This document shows positions 1 to 37,500 of a stretch of 37,500 nt of DNA, in pieces. The stretch is from positions 1 to 37,500 of IMG/VR virus record IMGVR_UViG_3300020195_000076, one strand, 5' to 3'. Numbering within the stretch: position 1 is the stretch's first letter; each line of letters starts with the position of its first letter. The notes below the pieces were generated by a model. It saw only the letters and a list, made by a program, of their open reading frames with translations. It ran no database searches and was not told the DNA's origin. Source of the stretch: a virus. Made by a program: the position numbers and the translations under genes.

Positions 1-86
1 GTCGGCGACTTTTATGCGCGGAAAATCGCAGGAGAAGAAATAGAGCGGCAAGAATGGATCTCCGCCCGCGAAAATTGTTGGTCAGT
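1..86. repeat. terminal direct repeat, left copy
   Basis: These 86 bases are identical to 37415-37500. The reading frame of the gene starting at 37025 continues without interruption from the right copy into the sequence after base 86. The overlap is therefore best read as the join of a circular assembly or a terminally redundant phage genome, giving a unique length of 37,414 bp. Whether the repeat is physical (a short terminal repeat) or only an assembly overlap cannot be told from sequence alone. Confidence 0.95.
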
Positions 87-516
87 CCGTGCTGCTGCTG
101 CTGCTGCTTATGCTGCTGATGCTGCTGATGCTGCTGCTGCTGCTTATGCTGCTGATGCTGCTGATGCTGCTGCTTATGCTGCTGCTTATGCTGCTGCTTA
201 TGCTGCTGATGCTGCTGATGCTGCTGCTTATGCTGCTGCTGCTTATGCTGCTTATGCTGCTGCTTATGCTGCTGCTGATGCTTATGCTGCTGCTGCTTAT
301 GCTGCTGCTTATGCTGCTGCTTATGCTGCTGATGCTGCTGATGAAGCGCGTCTATCGGCGCGGAAGAAACAAAGAGACAAGCTTCTTTCGTTGCTCAGCG
401 AGTGCGGCTTCACGGTAAGCGGTGCAGTGCGTCGAGGAGAGAAGGCGTTGGATACCGCGTGTGGCGAATCGAGAACAATAAGAGAAAGGGCTGATAAGGG
501 AGTAAATCGGACATGA
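1..516 (+). CDS. 3' part of Ala/Tyr/Asp-repeat phage protein (5' part at 37025)
   Basis: This is the C-terminal 171 codons of a 301-aa protein that starts with GTG at 37025 and crosses the genome join. Read in frame 1, the sequence continues the upstream domain to about codon 30. It then becomes an 84-codon tract of only Ala, Tyr and Asp (91-342), followed by a charged tail beginning DEARLSARKKQRDK and ending at TGA 514-516. That stop overlaps the next start as ATGA (513-516), which supports this frame as the translated one. Phage proteins of unknown function with a similar N-terminal domain and Ala-rich degenerate repeats are known; no activity has been established to my knowledge. The Leu/Met reading in another frame of the same tract is a shadow. 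Confidence 0.85.
   Translation, partial: VGDFYARKIAGEEIERQEWISARENCWSVRAAAAAAYAADAADAAAAAYAADAADAAAYAAAYAAAYAADAADAAAYAAAAYAAYAAAYAAADAYAAAAYAAAYAAAYAADAADEARLSARKKQRDKLLSLLSECGFTVSGAVRRGEKALDTACGESRTIRERADKGVNRT
91..342 (+). repeat. GCT/TAT/GAT codon microsatellite
   Basis: Eighty-four consecutive codons are drawn only from GCT (62), TAT (13) and GAT (9). Single Tyr or Asp codons are separated by one to six Ala codons, most often by two or three. No synonymous codon (GCC, GCA, GCG, TAC, GAC) occurs anywhere in the tract. This points to recent expansion by slippage or recombination rather than to selection on the protein alone. The tract sits immediately beyond the terminal 86-bp overlap, so its exact copy number may also be affected by assembly. 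Confidence 0.95.
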
Positions 517-9651: not shown

Positions 9652-11079
9652 TTAATACCAAGATCCACCGCCGCCGCCGGACGAACCGCCACCTTTACCG
9701 CCGCCTTTGCCCTGTTTTTCCTGCTGCTCCTGCCATTGGTATTGCTCACGAGACAGATTCTGGTCAAAAACGGCCTTATTCTTGTAGACACCCAAGCCGT
9801 AATCTTGACCCACGAAGCTCTGAGCATACCCCCCGAAATCAACCGGCGACGATTGGATCTGACTAGTTGCCGAGAACTGCGGATTCTGCACACCGCCGCT
9901 TAGCGCCCCAAGCCGAGCAACTTCGTCCAACGGCATGTAACGCAAGTCCTTAGCCTCGCTAATGCCCCTAGAGCGCGATCTATCGCCCATATCGAACATG
10001 GACTCTGTTTCCTGCCTGCCCGTCGTAATGGCGCTTGTGCGAGCTCTATTGAGTGCATCGCCCTTGTTCCGCTCAAGGTCCGACATAAGCCGGGAATACA
10101 TCTCAGAGCCTTGCGGGATGCCCTGGTTAGCCATCTTCTGCTCAAACGCTCGGAGCTGCTGCCCCGATTCCCGCTCAATGTCGCCTGAGTATTGCCCGTA
10201 TACCTGGTCCTCAACGCGCCTACGATCTCCCTGCAAATCCTCCATGCCAAGCGCCTTTGGCATAGCGCCGTAATTAAACGGCTGCTGCAAATTGGCTACC
10301 CCCGAGGCCGCAAGGCCGCCCATACCACCGCTAAACGTAGCATCGCGCTGTTGCTGAGAGTCCAACAGCCCCTGCTGCTCCGGGGATAGGCTGCTAATCC
10401 GGCTGTAAGAGCCATCGGGGTTTTGCCGAAACTCGCTCTGGCCGTAAGGATTAAACTCGTTGACGCGGTTGTATTGCGCCTGCTGCTGCATGTTCTGGTT
10501 GTTGATCTGGCCTTGAGTGTTGGCAATCTGCGCCGCTTGGTCAAAACCAGTGCTAGCGCCCCCGCTCTTATTGTATTCGTCCCACAAGCCCTGCACACGT
10601 GCGATCTCTGCGTCTGCTTGGCCTTGATTAATGCCTTTGCTCGCGACTTGAGCGGCAAGTGATGTCTTGAGCTGATCCACCGGCATGTAAGGCGCTGGGC
10701 CTTTGGGCGTTGTGTTCGTCGGGACAATGGGCTGTTGCGGCTGTTGCGGTTGCATCCCAGCGGTAGACTGCTGCCACTGCTGCATAGGCGTGCTGCCACG
10801 GTTCGTTGCTCCGTTTGCCAAGGGTGCTGTGCTAGTCGGAGCTGCCGTTGCCGTTGCCGCTGGTGCTCCCCAGCCGCCGTTGTTGATAGCGCCCTGCTGC
10901 GCTGCTGCCTCAGGCGTGATCCAGTTGTTCTGCACTTGCCAGTCAAGCGTTCCGTAAGCTGGAGCTGCCTTGCCGCCCCCGAGAGTTCCCGGCCCCGATA
11001 CTGGAGCTGCCTTGCCGCCCCCGAGAGTTCCCGGCCCCGATACTACGCCGCTATTTTGTGTTTTTCCGCTAACAGCCAT
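9652..11079 (-). CDS. Gln/Gly-rich internal virion protein
   Basis: 475 aa from the ATG at 11079; a longer frame to 11118 would lie inside the GNAT gene. It begins MAVSGKTQNSGVV and then carries two exact copies of a 14-residue unit (SGPGTLGGGKAAP plus Val or Ala). A Pro/Gln/Thr-rich region, a long Gln/Asn-rich helical body (QAQYNRVNEFNPYGQSEFRQ, SPEQQGLLDSQQQRDA, ESGQQLRAFEQKMANQGIPQ) and a Gly/Ser tail with GKGGGKGGGSSGGGGG follow. This kind of protein is common among podovirus ejection or minor tail components. The start overlaps the end of the acetyltransferase gene by 37 bp, which suggests coupled expression. Confidence 0.6.
   Translation of the reverse strand: MAVSGKTQNSGVVSGPGTLGGGKAAPVSGPGTLGGGKAAPAYGTLDWQVQNNWITPEAAAQQGAINNGGWGAPAATATAAPTSTAPLANGATNRGSTPMQQWQQSTAGMQPQQPQQPIVPTNTTPKGPAPYMPVDQLKTSLAAQVASKGINQGQADAEIARVQGLWDEYNKSGGASTGFDQAAQIANTQGQINNQNMQQQAQYNRVNEFNPYGQSEFRQNPDGSYSRISSLSPEQQGLLDSQQQRDATFSGGMGGLAASGVANLQQPFNYGAMPKALGMEDLQGDRRRVEDQVYGQYSGDIERESGQQLRAFEQKMANQGIPQGSEMYSRLMSDLERNKGDALNRARTSAITTGRQETESMFDMGDRSRSRGISEAKDLRYMPLDEVARLGALSGGVQNPQFSATSQIQSSPVDFGGYAQSFVGQDYGLGVYKNKAVFDQNLSREQYQWQEQQEKQGKGGGKGGGSSGGGGGSWY
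10961..11044 (-). repeat. perfect 42-bp tandem repeat (two copies)
   Basis: Bases 10961-11002 and 11003-11044 are identical. They encode two consecutive 14-residue units near the N-terminus of the Gln/Gly-rich virion protein, and the repeat ends at the stop codon of the overlapping GNAT gene. Perfect nucleotide identity implies a recent duplication. Confidence 0.95.
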
Positions 11080-11477
11080 CGTTCCATGTCCAATCGTGTT
11101 GCACCGTAAATGATGCAATCTTGTTGCCCGTCAAAGCCCTTGCGCTTCCTGCCTTCCTCGATAAACCCCAAGCCCCTAAGCAGCTTTCTTGCCCTGGCGT
11201 TTTTCTTACTCGTTACCGCCGTGAGTCTCACGCATTTAATTTCATCGAATCCAAACTGCATCACGCGTCTAATCCGTCCCGGCGTTGCCCACCTTGGAGT
11301 AGTTGCCGCAATGCTAACAAGCGCGTCAAACCCGTTTAGCTGCGAGAACACTACGCCCGCAACTAACTTCTCTCCGTCGTTAAAACCAAGCGCCCTAAAA
11401 GGCCCCCAGTCCGGGTAATGCTCAACACCGGGGCAAAGCCTTGCTACGAACTCACCTATGGCAAGCTCGGTCTGCAT
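11043..11477 (-). CDS. GNAT-like acetyltransferase in the virion operon
   Basis: 144 aa. The C-terminal half shows the GNAT acetyl-CoA-binding signature: FDEIKCVRLTAVTSKKNARA, then RKLLRGLGFIEEGRKRKGF. The N-terminal half has the beta-strand/helix order of the fold (ALGFNDGEKLVAGVVFSQL). GNAT enzymes transfer acetyl from acetyl-CoA to amines. Small GNAT-like proteins sit in the late operons of several podoviruses; their targets are not known to me. The start codon is shared with the end of the nozzle gene at 11477, and the end overlaps the next gene. It may act during particle assembly or modify host proteins late. Confidence 0.75.
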   Translation of the reverse strand: MQTELAIGEFVARLCPGVEHYPDWGPFRALGFNDGEKLVAGVVFSQLNGFDALVSIAATTPRWATPGRIRRVMQFGFDEIKCVRLTAVTSKKNARARKLLRGLGFIEEGRKRKGFDGQQDCIIYGATRLDMERWLLAEKHKIAA

Positions 11478-20383: not shown

Positions 20384-22033
20384 CTATTGCATCATAAACT
20401 CATGTAATAACTGTACCACAGTTTCATCCTCTTCAAGCTGCAACCGCTCAAGCTCAGCATCGATGTGCATCTGCATTGCAAGCGCCTCAAGCCGCGTCTG
20501 TGCCCACATCTCAAGCAGTTGCCGCTCATGTGCTAACCGCGCGGCTTCCTCTAGCGCCGCCCTTTGCTGGGCCTCTAGCAGTATCTGAGCTTGTATCAGC
20601 TCAATCGCGGCAAGAAGCCCGTCTAGTTGCTCAAGGCTTGGTCCTAGCGGCAACTGAGCTACTTGCTCAGCCTTGCGCTCTATCGCCTTCTTAGGCGGCA
20701 TTGGCAGCGTATCAGGGGCTATTTCCGGAGCTGCGCTCTGCGCATCGTCTTGCTTCTTTAGCGCCTGGTAAACTTCTAGAAAACTAACGATGCTCGGCTT
20801 AGGGTGCTTCTTACTCTTTTTGCCCTTTTTCTTTTTCTTTTTGCGGTAGCCGTCCCACTCAGAGTCATCATCATCATCGACCCAGCCAGTGAAGTAGGGC
20901 GCGGAATCGGCAGCGGTGCCGGTAGCACTTTGCCCCGCACTTGGGGCTACTTGTGAAACTGTGCCGGTAATGGTTTCTAGGGCACTTACGGACTGCTGAG
21001 AAACTGGCGCAGTTTGTAAAATAGATCCGGTAATAGTTTCAGTGCCGCTTGCTGCTTGCTGGGCACTCGGAGCTACTTGCGCAGCAGTGCCAGTAAGCGT
21101 CTCTAAAGCAGCAGCAGACTGAGAAACAATTGAAATGGTCTGCCCAACAGTGCCAGTAATTGTTTCGGTGGCAGAGGCAGACTGTTGAGCAATTGGAATT
21201 GCCTGAGCGGCACTTCCAAAAACAGTTTCTAATGCCGTTAAAACTTGGGCTGCTTTTGTAATGGTCTGAGCTGCTGTTCCAGTAATTGTTTCTAGGGCAG
21301 AGGCAGACTGTTGAGCTTTTGTAATGGTCTGCGCAGCGGTGCCGGTGATCGTTGCCGTAGTTAGCTTGAGTATCTGTGAGGGAAGTGAGTAAATAATAGG
21401 AACATGCGCCGCCTCGGTAGGGCTTGCGTTTAGCGTCATGTTATACCCACCGCGCACATCAATTTCAGGGGAGTACGCGCCGAGCAATGGCCAGTAGGCG
21501 ACAAGGTTTTGTCGCGCGACTAGGAGTGGAGAAACTTTATTCGCTAACTGCAACATTTCAGCTGCTGTCAATACCGCGTCGTAAACTGCTGCTTCAGCGA
21601 TTAAGCCGCCGTGATAGTTCCTTGTTGTTCGCATAGCGCGACCAATCGACATGCCGGTTAGTGTGCCGGTTGGAGCATTTGAAGTGGTGTTAGATCCGCT
21701 TGCTGTGTTCCAATACGCATTACGTAGCGTAGAAGAAGTGAAGGTCGCACCGTAAAAATTCCATGTGTTGATCGCACCGCCCCCGGTGCCGGCAAAGGCA
21801 GACACGCCCGTTGCCGCCGCATAGCTATAGGCGCGGGCGCGGCCATCGCTGTTCATGTATAGGCCGACGAACGTGCCGACTGTAGTATTGATCCCTACGT
21901 TGATCAGCGCGGATTCAACAACATCAACAGATCGGGTTGCCCAGCAGACAAGAGAACAGCCAGTGAATCCAACAGGCGGTGTTGAAGTATTTTCTAAATA
22001 CTGACTGCTGGCCGTAGTGAATGAGCGAGCCAT
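20384..22033 (-). CDS. LamG-like repeat fibre or appendage protein
   Basis: 549 aa. The first ~215 residues look like a LamG/concanavalin-like jelly-roll lectin domain (RSFTTASSQYLENTST ... SLVCWATRSVDVVESALINV ... HGGLIAEAAVYDAVLTAAEM, then LVAYWPLLG). Seven copies of a 21-residue Thr/Gln/Ala repeat follow (about residues 229-375). Next come an acidic-basic switch (VDDDDDSEWDG then YRKKKKKKGKKSKKHPK) and a C-terminal coiled coil (LEQLDGLLAAIELIQAQILL and onward). A lectin head, repeat stalk and coiled-coil end suit a receptor-binding fibre or head fibre. Polymorphic repeat number would change its length. Confidence 0.68.
   Translation of the reverse strand: MARSFTTASSQYLENTSTPPVGFTGCSLVCWATRSVDVVESALINVGINTTVGTFVGLYMNSDGRARAYSYAAATGVSAFAGTGGGAINTWNFYGATFTSSTLRNAYWNTASGSNTTSNAPTGTLTGMSIGRAMRTTRNYHGGLIAEAAVYDAVLTAAEMLQLANKVSPLLVARQNLVAYWPLLGAYSPEIDVRGGYNMTLNASPTEAAHVPIIYSLPSQILKLTTATITGTAAQTITKAQQSASALETITGTAAQTITKAAQVLTALETVFGSAAQAIPIAQQSASATETITGTVGQTISIVSQSAAALETLTGTAAQVAPSAQQAASGTETITGSILQTAPVSQQSVSALETITGTVSQVAPSAGQSATGTAADSAPYFTGWVDDDDDSEWDGYRKKKKKKGKKSKKHPKPSIVSFLEVYQALKKQDDAQSAAPEIAPDTLPMPPKKAIERKAEQVAQLPLGPSLEQLDGLLAAIELIQAQILLEAQQRAALEEAARLAHERQLLEMWAQTRLEALAMQMHIDAELERLQLEEDETVVQLLHEFMMQ
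20909..21349 (-). repeat. seven 63-bp coding repeats (21-aa stalk)
   Basis: Seven imperfect 63-bp units encode a 21-residue repeat of the form ITGTAAQTITKAQQSASALE plus Thr. The ITG.. start, the central Q/A segment and the LET end are the most conserved parts, and the units drift in the middle. This would form an extended beta or collagen-like stalk between lectin and coiled-coil parts. Confidence 0.88.
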
Positions 22034-33028: not shown

Positions 33029-33216
33029 ACCTCCCCGAAGCCCGCGGGCCTTACTGCACATGCATACCCGGGCAATCCACATACACCTTCGGCACCACGG
33101 TTCCAAGCCGTATCTCACACCGCGAATTGCTAGAGCGCGACTACGCCATTTGGCAAGAGGAGCTAGCAATGGCGCGTGCTGAGTCTGTAGCATCCAAAGC
33201 AGGAGCAATCCGATAA
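33025..33216 (+). CDS. hypothetical protein of the replication operon
   Basis: 63 aa, ATG overlapping the preceding stop, and its own stop overlapping the ATG of the ATPase gene at 33216. It has an aromatic/Cys-containing start (NLPEARGPYCTCIPGQSTYT) and a helical end (HRELLERDYAIWQEELAMAR). Full coupling argues it is translated. Function unknown. Confidence 0.55.
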   Translation: MNLPEARGPYCTCIPGQSTYTFGTTVPSRISHRELLERDYAIWQEELAMARAESVASKAGAIR

Positions 33217-34133
33217 TGGAACTAACGATTAGAAAAGCCCAACGCAGCCAGCGGCCATTTAAGGGCTGTATAGCCGCACCATCGGGCGCTGGTAAAACCT
33301 ATACCGCTCTATCCCTTGCAGAGGGTTTAAAGAATGGCGGGCGTGTTCTGCTCATTGATACGGAAAACAAGAGCAGTGAGCTTTATGCTGACCGCTTTGA
33401 CTTCGATGTGATCGATATTCCTGAGCATTCGGTTGAGACGCTCCTAGTCGCGCTGCGGTTAGCGATAAAAGGGAAATACGATGTCACCATCGTTGATTCC
33501 GGCACGCACGCTTGGCAATTCATTCTTGATGAGAAAGGGAAGATAGACCTTCGGGGCGGTAACTCCTTTACCAATTGGGGCAAGGTAACGCCGCAATATG
33601 AGCAACTGATCAACGCTATCGGCAAATTCCCTAACCACCTGATTTTCACACTACGGGCCAAGACTTCCTATGTGCTGGAAGAGAACGACCGAGGCAAGCA
33701 GGTTCCTAAGAAGGTCGGCATGGGCGCTGTGTTCCGTGATGGCGGCGAGTATGAGTTCGACTTCTACGGCACGATGGACCTGGCGCACAATTTTTTTGTG
33801 GAAAAAAGCCGCATCGACTTCCTTGCTGACAAGGTTATCGCAAAGCCGGGTAAAGAGCTGGGGCAAGAAATTAGGGACTGGCTGAAAGCGGGAAGCCACT
33901 CACCTACAACACCAAGCAAACTAGCGCTTTCGCAGGGCGAGTCCTTTATTGGGCAAGACCTCCAATCCCTGAACTTGCCCCAGCTAATTGCCTATTACGA
34001 TAAGCATGTTGCCGTGATGCCTGCCGACGAGAAAGAAGCTTGCGAGCGACAGCTCGAGAAGCTTCAGAACGACATTAAAGCCACAAAGAAAAAGGAGCTA
34101 GAAAATGGGAACGCTACTGCCTACCCCGCTTGA
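33216..34133 (+). CDS. Sak4-like/RecA-fold recombination ATPase
   Basis: 305 aa. The P-loop APSGAGKT lies at residues 21-28, and the Walker-B-like VTIVDS at about 90-95 with hydrophobic lead-in (GKYDVTIVDSG). The fold order with VLLIDTENKSSELYADRF resembles phage Sak4-type single-strand annealing ATPases, often annotated as AAA/NTP-binding proteins. These load on single-stranded DNA and promote strand annealing, aided by a phage SSB. The DUF669 gene that overlaps its 3' end by 29 bp is the expected partner. No DNA polymerase is encoded nearby. Confidence 0.78.
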   Translation: MELTIRKAQRSQRPFKGCIAAPSGAGKTYTALSLAEGLKNGGRVLLIDTENKSSELYADRFDFDVIDIPEHSVETLLVALRLAIKGKYDVTIVDSGTHAWQFILDEKGKIDLRGGNSFTNWGKVTPQYEQLINAIGKFPNHLIFTLRAKTSYVLEENDRGKQVPKKVGMGAVFRDGGEYEFDFYGTMDLAHNFFVEKSRIDFLADKVIAKPGKELGQEIRDWLKAGSHSPTTPSKLALSQGESFIGQDLQSLNLPQLIAYYDKHVAVMPADEKEACERQLEKLQNDIKATKKKELENGNATAYPA

Positions 34134-34593
34134 TTTAGACGCGCCAATTGAGGAGTCAGACGACATGGAATCATACGAACTGCTGAAGCCTGCTGATTAC
34201 GTGGTTCGCGTGAAGGAAGCCGACGTAGGGCCTAGTAAGAAGGGAGATTGCACGCTGCTGAAGCTAACCTTTGAAGTTGCTCAGGCGAAGTACAAGGGCC
34301 GCTTGCTTTGGGACTACATCATCCAGCAGCACCAGAAGCCGAGCGCTGTGGTGATGGGTAAGAAGCGCACGAAAGAGCTTTGTGACGCCATTGGTATTCA
34401 CGGGGTGCTGCGGGATGCTGCGCTGTTAATCGGGCAAACCTGCATTGCTGCTGTGAGCATTGAGCCTGAGCAGAAGGGCTACAAGCCGAAGAACGTGATC
34501 GATAGCTATCGATCACGATCCGAGCCGCATGTATCCCCTGCTGTTAACGGGGCGCCTGTTGCTTTTGATGATGATGATGATATTCCCTTTTGA
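34105..34593 (+). CDS. DUF669 single-stranded-DNA-binding-like protein
   Basis: 162 aa with AAAAAGGAG upstream of its ATG. The body (LKPADYVVRVKEADVGPSKK, LKLTFEVAQAKYKGRLLWDY, LIGQTCIAAVSIEPEQKGY) has the DUF669 layout, an OB-fold-like protein. The C-terminus ends DDDDDIPF, an acidic tail with a hydrophobic end like that of SSBs, which recruits partner proteins. DUF669 proteins pair with Sak4-type ATPases in phage recombination modules; that is the inferred role here. Confidence 0.75.
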   Translation: MGTLLPTPLDLDAPIEESDDMESYELLKPADYVVRVKEADVGPSKKGDCTLLKLTFEVAQAKYKGRLLWDYIIQQHQKPSAVVMGKKRTKELCDAIGIHGVLRDAALLIGQTCIAAVSIEPEQKGYKPKNVIDSYRSRSEPHVSPAVNGAPVAFDDDDDIPF

Positions 34594-36290: not shown

Positions 36291-36369
36291 TCGAGTCATT
36301 AGGCGGCACAATCGCAGGGCAGCAGCAGCAAGGGCATTAGCAGCATGGCTAGGGCACGCAAAGCGTTAG
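36271..36369 (+). CDS. possible 32-aa Arg/Ala-rich peptide
   Basis: ATG at 36271 opens a frame of 32 codons (MEARIISRVIRRHNRRAAAA at the start, then RALAAWLGHAKR). It overlaps the end of the RHH-like gene by 20 bp and the start of the nuclease gene by 25 bp. Cationic and helical, but there is little upstream ribosome signal. It could simply be spacer between two genes. Confidence 0.25.
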   Translation: MEARIISRVIRRHNRRAAAARALAAWLGHAKR

Positions 36370-36785
36370 CAACGGGCGACGCGATCAGCATCGAGGAGTA
36401 CCAAAGTGGAACGAAGCGCAAGCATAAGTTTAACGCTACCCGCACCTTCGTTAACCACATCGGGTTCGACTCAAAGCGGGAGTCGGAGCGCTACATCGAG
36501 CTACTCACTGTGCAAACGCACAGCAGCGCCCAGCTTATCCGTAACTTACAGACGCAGCGCACTTTCGAGTTCTTCACATGCGGCTGCAAAGTCGAGCGCT
36601 GGCGAATTGATTTCTGTTACGAGGAATGGAATCGGCGCGAGAATTGCTGGAACCGCATCGCTGAGGATGTCACAGGCTTCATGACGGCACGCAAGACGCG
36701 GCTAATACGGCTGTTTGAGGAGCAGTATGGATTGGATAACAACTACACGGATTTCGAAAAATGGGACCTACGAATAAGCAAGTGA
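36345..36785 (+). CDS. DUF1064 resolvase-like nuclease
   Basis: 146 aa. GTKRKHKFNATRTFVNHIGF, DSKRESERYIELL, LQTQRTFEFF, ERWRIDFCYEEW, IAEDVTGFMTARKTRLIRLF match the DUF1064 (phage Holliday-junction resolvase-like) pattern 'KYNA... FDSK.E..RY ... Q..F ... Y..DF.Y ... EDVKG'. These are PD-(D/E)xK-type nucleases thought to resolve branched DNA before packaging. The acidic residues RWRIDF and AEDVTG fit the catalytic positions; the conserved Lys is less clear. It fits the recombination module upstream. Confidence 0.75.
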   Translation: MARARKALATGDAISIEEYQSGTKRKHKFNATRTFVNHIGFDSKRESERYIELLTVQTHSSAQLIRNLQTQRTFEFFTCGCKVERWRIDFCYEEWNRRENCWNRIAEDVTGFMTARKTRLIRLFEEQYGLDNNYTDFEKWDLRISK

Positions 36786-37024: not shown

Positions 37025-37500
37025 GTGATTGCATACCACGGAAGCGAAGCTATTAAAGCGAAGTATCTAGCTAGAGTTAGATTGCATAGAGAGGCTGATG
37101 AGATTATTCACGGTTTTTACTGGAAGGACGGCAAGGGTTGCGCGGTCGGCTGCACTATTCACAGCGGTTCGCACGCGGCATACGAGACTGAGCTGGGAAT
37201 TCCACAAGCTATCGCTCGCCTTGAGGACGGTATCTTCGAAGGGCTGAGTAATGGCGATGCAAAGCTATTTCCAGAACAGTTTCTAACGGCCATAAACGTA
37301 GGCGCGGACCTCACTGGCGTCGCTGATAAGTTCTTGCATTGGCTGCTGGTCGATCCGAGCGACGGTGTGATGCGCTATGCGCGAACTGATGACCAGCGAC
37401 GAGCCATCGAGCGAGTCGGCGACTTTTATGCGCGGAAAATCGCAGGAGAAGAAATAGAGCGGCAAGAATGGATCTCCGCCCGCGAAAATTGTTGGTCAGT
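37025..37500 (+). CDS. 5' part of Ala/Tyr/Asp-repeat phage protein (continues at base 1)
   Basis: GTG at 37025 with AGGAG at 37012-37016 (8 nt spacing). The N-terminal domain of about 155 residues includes GFYWKDGKGCAVGCTIHSGS, then HAAYETELGIPQAIARLEDG, GLSNGDAKLFPEQFLTAINV and FLHWLLVD. This Cys/His-containing GCAVGCTIHS...HAAYE pattern is shared by a recurrent group of uncharacterised phage proteins that end in Ala-rich repeats. After the join it continues into the GCT/TAT/GAT tract and stops at 516, giving 301 aa. The conserved domain and repeat tail suggest a regulatory or multimeric protein; no function is known. Confidence 0.85.
   Translation, partial: MIAYHGSEAIKAKYLARVRLHREADEIIHGFYWKDGKGCAVGCTIHSGSHAAYETELGIPQAIARLEDGIFEGLSNGDAKLFPEQFLTAINVGADLTGVADKFLHWLLVDPSDGVMRYARTDDQRRAIERVGDFYARKIAGEEIERQEWISARENCWS
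37415..37500. repeat. terminal direct repeat, right copy
   Basis: Identical to 1-86; see the left copy. The reading frame of the gene at 37025 passes through this copy unchanged and, when joined to base 87, continues into the codon microsatellite. Confidence 0.95.

Follow-up and report, generated by a model that had tools for sequence, protein, structure and literature searches.

A codon-pure alanine-rich tract in a phage gene and its variation among relatives

Domain II of Escherichia coli TolA, a long helical domain, resembles the gene described here in that it contains an in-frame Ala-rich repeat; according to the accessible part of the report, copy number of this repeat varies between E. 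coli strains and its contractions are RecA-dependent (PMC3477136). Archaeal Borg aaTRs, as far as the available text describes them, are rapidly evolving whole-codon repeats whose homologues are alike in amino acids without being identical in DNA (PMC9879509). The type I antifreeze proteins of fish are Ala-rich helices in which the main Ala codon differs by lineage, and the consulted sections of one study argue for separate origins of their genes (PMC3855684). In low-complexity regions of prokaryotes and phages, Ala is described as enriched and aromatic residues as under-represented (PMC6821194, in part). A literature search of limited coverage found no paper on codon-switching Ala-rich tracts in phages. 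Here, we analyze such a tract in a window of 37,500 nucleotides, which makes up most of a 39,242-base virus record (IMGVR_UViG_3300020195_000076), and compare it with tracts in related and unrelated phage proteins.

The tract gene and its surroundings in the window

Codon-by-codon counting of positions 91-342 gave 62 GCT, 13 TAT and 9 GAT codons and no synonyms, exactly the 84-codon composition reported in an earlier sequence-only reading of this DNA. Based on codon usage in 15 long ORFs of the window, where GCT accounts for 26% of Ala, TAT for 43% of Tyr and GAT for 56% of Asp codons, the probability of such purity is ~10^-43; chance is therefore excluded and the observation is real. All four Ala codons occur in the remainder of the gene (GCT 7, GCC 3, GCA 5 and GCG 10). 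Tandem Repeats Finder placed the array at 90-343, with periods of 9, 12 and 54 at 78-84% match; given these periods and the phage genes that surround the tract, a regular one-unit array of the Borg type was rejected. As DNA, the tract folds better than shuffled sequences on both strands (z of -3.25 and -2.84). A search of IMG/VR with an exact 24-mer of the tract gene found no near strain.

The last 86 bases of the window (37415-37500) are identical to its first 86. Since the ends are identical, the gene is read as starting at 37025 and as being split by the ends of the record (Table 1). The joined gene encodes 301 aa. Its GTG start is in frame and preceded by AATAGGAG, with AGGAG before the GTG, and its TGA stop (514-516) overlaps the ATG of the downstream gene, for which no Pfam match was obtained at E 0.01. 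Positions 346-405 encode ARLSARKKQRDKLLSLLSEC, which by eye corresponds to the C-terminal 'RxAQADKLxELL' conserved in the family, whereas the residues past it are not common to the family. Together with the homologues of the N-terminal domain (N-domain) described below, the AGGAG, the start and the overlapping stop bear out the claim that this is a real gene. The sequence-only reading also had the frame link a conserved N-terminal domain to a coupled downstream gene. Both are present, but positions 1-90 hold only the tail of the domain. Similarly, the Leu/Met-rich +1 frame that it noticed is indeed open at 89-418, but its openness follows from codon make-up and its product is not conserved in the family. 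Tract codons seldom give a stop in the +1 frame, which therefore stays open in 47 of 49 family tracts; it encodes mainly Leu/Met in 16 tracts and mainly Pro/Thr in 15, and the remaining tracts give other residues.

Table 1. Features of the tract gene and of selected neighboring genes (window coordinates)
Feature	Position	Strand	Basis or remark
Codon-pure Ala/Tyr/Asp tract	91..342	+	Codon count, Tandem Repeats Finder
Exact copy of window 1-86	37415..37500	+	Taken as start of the record's end repeat
N-terminal domain of tract gene, 130 codons from GTG 37025	37025..37414	+	Continues at window position 1
End of N-terminal domain and linker before tract	1..90	+	
C-terminal part of tract gene	343..513	+	
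Downstream gene, 83 aa	513..764	+	ATGA overlap with stop of tract gene
Sak4-like single-strand annealing protein gene	33216..34133	+	PHROGs; possible driver of repeat recombination
Single-strand DNA-binding protein (SSB) gene	34105..34593	+	PHROGs
Holliday-junction resolvase-like gene	36345..36785	+	PHROGs

A PHROGs scan of ten other window proteins gave matches for seven (terminase, portal, lytic tail protein, Sak4-like protein, SSB, DnaD-like helicase loader and Holliday-junction resolvase), and the virus is a tailed phage. Pfam matched two of ten scanned proteins, a Lar-type restriction alleviation protein (PF14354, E 2.1e-9; 2073-2249) and DUF551 (768-1058). On Roseomonas plasmid p1-AD2, too, a member of the N-domain family has a Lar gene nearby. 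Because the tract gene sits among small genes including the Lar-like one, a role in early host takeover or counter-defence may be guessed at. For each window gene close to the tract gene, homologues occur beside at most one relative. The larger neighborhood clusters among the relatives consist of the tract gene itself and its shadow ORFs, and the remaining clusters occur in three or four loci; in L059, L067 and L069 a gene that by eye resembles pentapeptide-repeat genes lies downstream of the tract gene. Elsewhere in the window there are a perfect 42-bp tandem duplication (10959-11044, in the region of the minus-strand ORF 9652-11118) and degenerate 63-bp repeats (20952-21358) within a minus-strand ORF of 549 aa (20384-22033).

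The N-domain family and the codon sets of its tracts

A search with the N-domain (P0003) identified 32 IMG/VR loci, and a search with their alignment 54, the two sets overlapping. By contrast, with the whole frame 1-516 as a query 322 stretches matched a word but none was confirmed as a relative. Distant members were found in named phage records, namely, 11 Xanthomonas records (including cases of two entries for one phage) and Mycobacterium phage Bobby. The N-domain is also present on three plasmids, two of which, from Sphingomonadales, lack both the tract and two conserved Cys residues. The tract-less homologues on Sphingomonas and Novosphingobium plasmids (L095 1-5456 and L096 1-5447) adjoin trxA and genes for TldD-related peptidases and an M3 metallopeptidase, as well as trxB in L096.

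The window N-domain is 40-67% identical to the 31 other aligned rows. Residues invariant in all 32 rows include K11, C39, C43, H50, Y53, P83, F86, G93 and the LED-IFE stretch, the invariance of which is partly selected, as it served as a search word. The window protein has the conserved N-domain residues followed by the codon-pure Ala-rich tract and the C-terminal helix, like its family. PHROG 3416 matches eight of the 32 N-domains (E up to 0.01); P0003 gave E 4.7e-4. No Pfam match was obtained for the window protein, and its NCBIfam matches lie far under their cut-offs; for the 32 N-domains the best Pfam E-value was 0.04. Several candidate relationships were discarded: the phage anti-defence families Acb3 and Tad8 (one N-domain member each, not better than E 0.04), Plasmodium_HRP in L068 (E 4e-4, under the cut-off of the model and due to low complexity) and an SH3 domain (the best PDB sequence match, not credible at E 0.019). 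The single hit of a scan of genome contigs, L037, has the look of a leucine-rich repeat and was dropped.

The AlphaFold2 model of P0003, built from the 32 rows, is confident and mostly helical (pLDDT 87.3, pTM 0.76). In the full-length model of the homologue L068, confidence is high for the N-domain and the last helix but not for much of the tract (pLDDT <50 at residues 191-242). We infer from these models that the N-domain and the last helix would form one folded unit, into which the tract is inserted. A Foldseek search of PDB with the full-length model gave a best E-value of 1.0. Structural fragments of kinases, 14-3-3 and other proteins (Z ≤5.4) involved mostly the last helices and were not taken as evidence of kinship. 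In BFVD there was one match at E <0.001, the uncharacterised phage protein A0A6J5QCR4 (TM 0.81).

To describe the tract across the family we used 59 genes (the 54 loci, the window and four genes from named records) and defined the tract as at least 18 codons by protein Ala content alone; only L075, with Leu/Ala triplets, was marked by hand. The tract is present in 50 of the 59 genes, 49 of which are different (L056 and L057 represent one gene). Nine genes lack a tract of this length; contig ends truncate seven of them, and the other two (L044 and L085) are complete and have a short tract. Among complete different genes, 43 of 45 carry an Ala-rich tract of 29-142 codons (median 66). In all 49 tracts, synonymous purity is higher than outside the tract (median 0.986 versus 0.561), the smallest margin being 0.016 (L083). 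Purity is not total: it reaches at least 0.95 in 37 of 50 tracts and is below 0.8 in nine. The main Ala codon is GCC in 21 tracts, GCT in 16, GCG in nine and GCA in three. The third base tracks the residues, such that NNT and NNC tracts contain mainly Tyr/Asp and NNG tracts Trp/Glu/Arg. The codon class is also partly tied to genome G+C, with means of 0.43 for T, 0.59 for C and 0.62 for G loci. In L075 (860-1120), the tract consists of SAL/RAL/RDL triplets instead of AAY/AAD and is still codon-pure. Comparison of homologues, a check proposed in the sequence-only reading, revealed the opposite of one length and one codon choice shared across distant phages.

Internal long repeats exceed those of codon-order shuffles in 29 of 49 family tracts. 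The window tract is one of the 20 negative cases, its longest internal repeat (52 nt) being reached by 19 of 200 shuffles. We found no helical face common to the family tracts: best-fitting periods of 3.0, 3.7 and 4.0 all occur (3.74 in the window tract), which lends no support to the regular Tyr/Asp spacing suggested earlier, and a conserved face was rejected as a rule for the family.

In a tree of 49 N-domains, in which the branches of L092 and L097 are long and unsure, codon class is clustered, yet needs at least 14 changes (the least possible number is 3 and the shuffled mean 23.2). Strongly supported branches force only 4, 3, 2 and 1 changes (four classes), so the figure of 14 is soft. 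Differences are found between strongly supported sisters. L038 and L040 use GCC in 33 of 33 and GCT in 32 of 33 Ala codons, respectively, and L077 and L079 use GCT in 31 of 31 and GCC in 23 of 24, the tract of L079 being cut by the contig end. N-domains of L048 and L053 are 75% identical in DNA, whereas their tracts differ in both codons and residues: L048 has 50 GCC, 10 GAC, 9 TAC and 1 GCT, and L053 has 26 GCG, 24 GCT, 8 GAT, 6 TGG and 6 CGG. Likewise, L059 and L067 have N-domains 91% identical in DNA and rearranged tracts. Since the tract differs while its flanks are conserved, it appears to have been rebuilt in place, and it seems to be remade at a much higher rate than other parts of the gene.

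Length variation between near-identical phages and its explanations

The tract type is not unique to the window. Two 24-base patterns (NNT and NNC) matched at least 120 IMG/VR stretches each, at least 240 altogether. The 240 listed loci contain 250 tract ORFs, 24 with the N-domain of the window and 43 cut before any such domain could be seen. Of the 250 ORFs among the matches listed, 203 have an Ala purity of 0.95 or more, a figure biased upward because the 24-base patterns favor pure tracts; the family tracts, on the other hand, were not chosen by codons. In L260 (1329-2638) two tract ORFs lie side by side, both identical in L331.

Among the 250 listed ORFs there are eight near-identical gene pairs (flank identity of 97% or more, compared across up to 400 bases per side) on seven contig pairs. 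Tracts are identical in six pairs and different in two. L180 and L212 are identical over 537 of 537 upstream and 1999 of 2000 downstream bases, yet their tracts have 85 and 59 codons. The difference of 26 codons is one 78-nt block, bounded by a 19-nt direct repeat and absent from the shorter copy. In L173 and L190 (flanks 240/240 and 2000/2000), the tracts have 64 and 50 codons, 14 apart, and more than one change has occurred inside. In addition, L201 and L202 are distinguished by a 15-codon tandem duplication and other tract changes; their nearest upstream flank agrees at 239 of 240 and the downstream flank at 1992 of 2000 bases, agreement being lower further upstream. These pairs are direct evidence for in-frame gain or loss of blocks between strains. 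All such length variants come from metagenome contigs (L201 and L202 from neighboring sample numbers), and none of the three pairs has the N-domain of the window; near-identical pairs within the window's family (L056/L057 and L196/L197) have identical tracts. Length polymorphism, as anticipated in the sequence-only reading, is thus seen for the tract type in two of eight pairs, but on proteins with other N-domains, and three-base steps do keep the frame.

The Xanthomonas phages behave differently. KPhi1 and phiXaf18 have tracts of equal length and BsXeu269p/3 has one codon more, with three substitutions in the tract relative to KPhi1 and a fourth immediately beyond its end. Tract length is constant in XapPhi3 to XapPhi6, which show up to four substitutions in the tract (four in XapPhi3 versus XapPhi5 and XapPhi6). 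Between the two groups, N-domains are 84% identical and tracts have 142 versus 70 codons. These tracts belong to the less pure G type (purity 0.82-0.89).

GCT, GCC, GCG and GCA repeats belong to the CTG/CAG and CGG/CCG triplet classes, which form hairpins and expand. We consider it probable that the tract is an in-frame Ala-rich arm turned over by slippage or recombination. The product would be a phage accessory protein composed of the conserved helical N-domain, an Ala-rich arm of variable length and the conserved C-terminal helix, and the DNA of the arm a trinucleotide-based tract which is repeatedly lost and then regrown. Slipped-strand synthesis, or annealing between short direct repeats, would delete or duplicate blocks of whole codons in frame. 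If blocks are copied faster than third bases mutate, the tract would become uniform in its third base, and regrowth from small seeds would provide different phages with different, similarly pure codon sets (NNT, NNC and NNG). The purity of the window tract fits the recent expansion proposed earlier. Slippage or single-strand annealing is the molecular step suggested by these patterns, and the Sak4-like annealing protein and the SSB of the phage are plausible helpers, perhaps aiding either process. In a neutral simulation with 10^-4 substitutions at third bases for each codon and block event, median purity was 0.986; at three times that rate it was 0.89. The Xanthomonas isolates, which differ by substitutions rather than blocks, do not display the excess of block events that the simulation needs, whereas L180/L212 and L173/L190 could. 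Selection at the protein level may maintain the frame and the make-up of the arm (mainly Ala, interrupted at intervals of a few residues by an aromatic and a charged one) and leave its exact order, period and length free; for selection on make-up, we regard the chances as about even. The arm itself might act as a helical spacer that tolerates changes in length and separates two parts of a single fold.

The same turnover could act on a tolerated low-complexity insert devoid of function, with selection only against frame loss and harmful residues and with no role as an arm. Order, length and period of the tract are free, two plasmid homologues from Sphingomonadales dispense with it and such tracts occur on many proteins with other N-domains, all of which would agree with a passive insert. 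However, the combination of aromatic and charged residues with Ala recurs across codons (Tyr/Asp in NNY and Trp/Glu/Arg in NNG), and only L044 and L085 of the 52 genes not cut before the region have a short tract. A passive insert is thus a real possibility, though one we incline against. It is also conceivable that third-base uniformity reflects selection on the letters themselves, for a DNA or mRNA function such as structure, pausing or protein binding, rather than recent copying. Under such selection, one could understand the better-than-shuffled folding of the window tract, the high Ala purity in the 203 of 250 listed ORFs, which encode many different proteins but were chosen by pure 24-mers, and the change by substitution instead of blocks in close Xanthomonas isolates. 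Yet third bases differ among related genes, and therefore no common sequence has been kept; the arrangement of the tract also changes between close relatives. Accordingly, we deem selection on the letters unlikely.

Assembly could in principle have created or collapsed repeats. Contig ends fall within the gene in 13 of the 54 family loci, as opposed to 1.33 expected, and the records of XapPhi1 and XapPhi2 stop inside the tract, an excess suggesting that assemblers fail at these tracts. Nevertheless, named phage records display the same architecture and the extra block of L180 has sequence wholly absent from L212, so that collapse of identical units cannot explain it, and a pure artefact is highly unlikely. 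Because contig ends and circular permutation cut such genes, they are likely to be undercounted and mis-annotated. Triplet repeats and length variants would also be expected of a phase-variable contingency locus, in which the protein is switched on and off or into the Leu/Met frame, as had been suggested from the sequence. That suggestion is not borne out: length differences between near-identical genes comprise whole codons, with no frame-changing variant in the pairs compared, close Xanthomonas isolates differ by at most one codon (two groups) and the residues encoded by the +1 frame vary with the codon class. Such switching is most improbable. Finally, variable codons differ mainly at bases one and two, with the third base fixed, as would be the case if a diversity-generating retroelement altered NNY codons only at these positions. 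But a reverse transcriptase (PF00078) was found in none of 34 records, some of which are fragments (the record of the window was searched to 37500), and the window tract is limited to Ala, Tyr and Asp, making a retroelement target exceedingly improbable.

If turnover in frame is the correct reading, the tract family offers many natural replicates of one event, growth of a protein arm from triplets, for which the flanking domains serve as a clock, and the turnover speed of coding triplet tracts in phages becomes measurable. Because the same residues are encoded with different third bases, selection at the protein level could be separated from selection at the DNA level. In addition, the function of Ala-rich arms containing Tyr or Trp in small phage proteins could be studied in this family, which lends itself naturally to testing how viruses extend protein arms and change their length. 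It is tempting to speculate, although we are doubtful, that tailed phages share a self-renewing triplet tract on different small accessory proteins, with arm length set within a few generations by the phage's own annealing recombination so as to tune, in a quantitative way, binding to a rapidly changing host partner.

Comparison with known systems

Imm5 is an immunity domain that accompanies DYW-deaminase and CdiAC toxins, according to the available portion of its description (PMC3482391). Among 136 scanned tract proteins, Pfam at E 0.001 matched Imm5_like (PF21805) in 27 and Imm5 (PF14423) in eight. Like the window protein, these phage proteins carry a codon-pure GCT/TAT/GAT or GCC/TAC/GAC tract near the C-terminus, but the window protein and nine relatives have no Imm5 match over the cut-off. 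An hhalign comparison of Imm5-type domains with the window domain before the tract, using 41 of 90 segments, gave a probability of 1.5% (E 0.035) over 31 columns of the last helix, to which the likeness is also confined by eye. By this profile comparison, no clear kinship between the two domains is detectable. For phrog_3416, a family of unknown function, the match to the window protein covers 102 of 248 positions.

TolA differs from the window protein in that it belongs to the cell envelope and has a segment rich in Lys and Ala with units of 15 or 18 bp, and the accessible part of the tolA report makes no mention of codon-set switching (PMC3477136). The family of the window shares with Borg aaTRs the whole-codon repeats similar in amino acids and not in DNA. 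As described in the available text, however, Borg aaTRs occur in other proteins, are commonly disordered and are nearly free of Trp and Phe (PMC9879509), whereas here Ala is combined with Tyr or Trp.

A regular 11-residue spacing of Thr on an Ala helix is the pattern of type I antifreeze proteins. Thr is absent from the 84-residue window tract; hence there is no such pattern, and the ice-binding-like surface proposed earlier is not supported. In contrast to the type I antifreeze genes, the flanking domains are homologous here and only the tract appears to be rebuilt. The tract phenomenon is real and general, and it represents a variant of known in-frame coding repeats.
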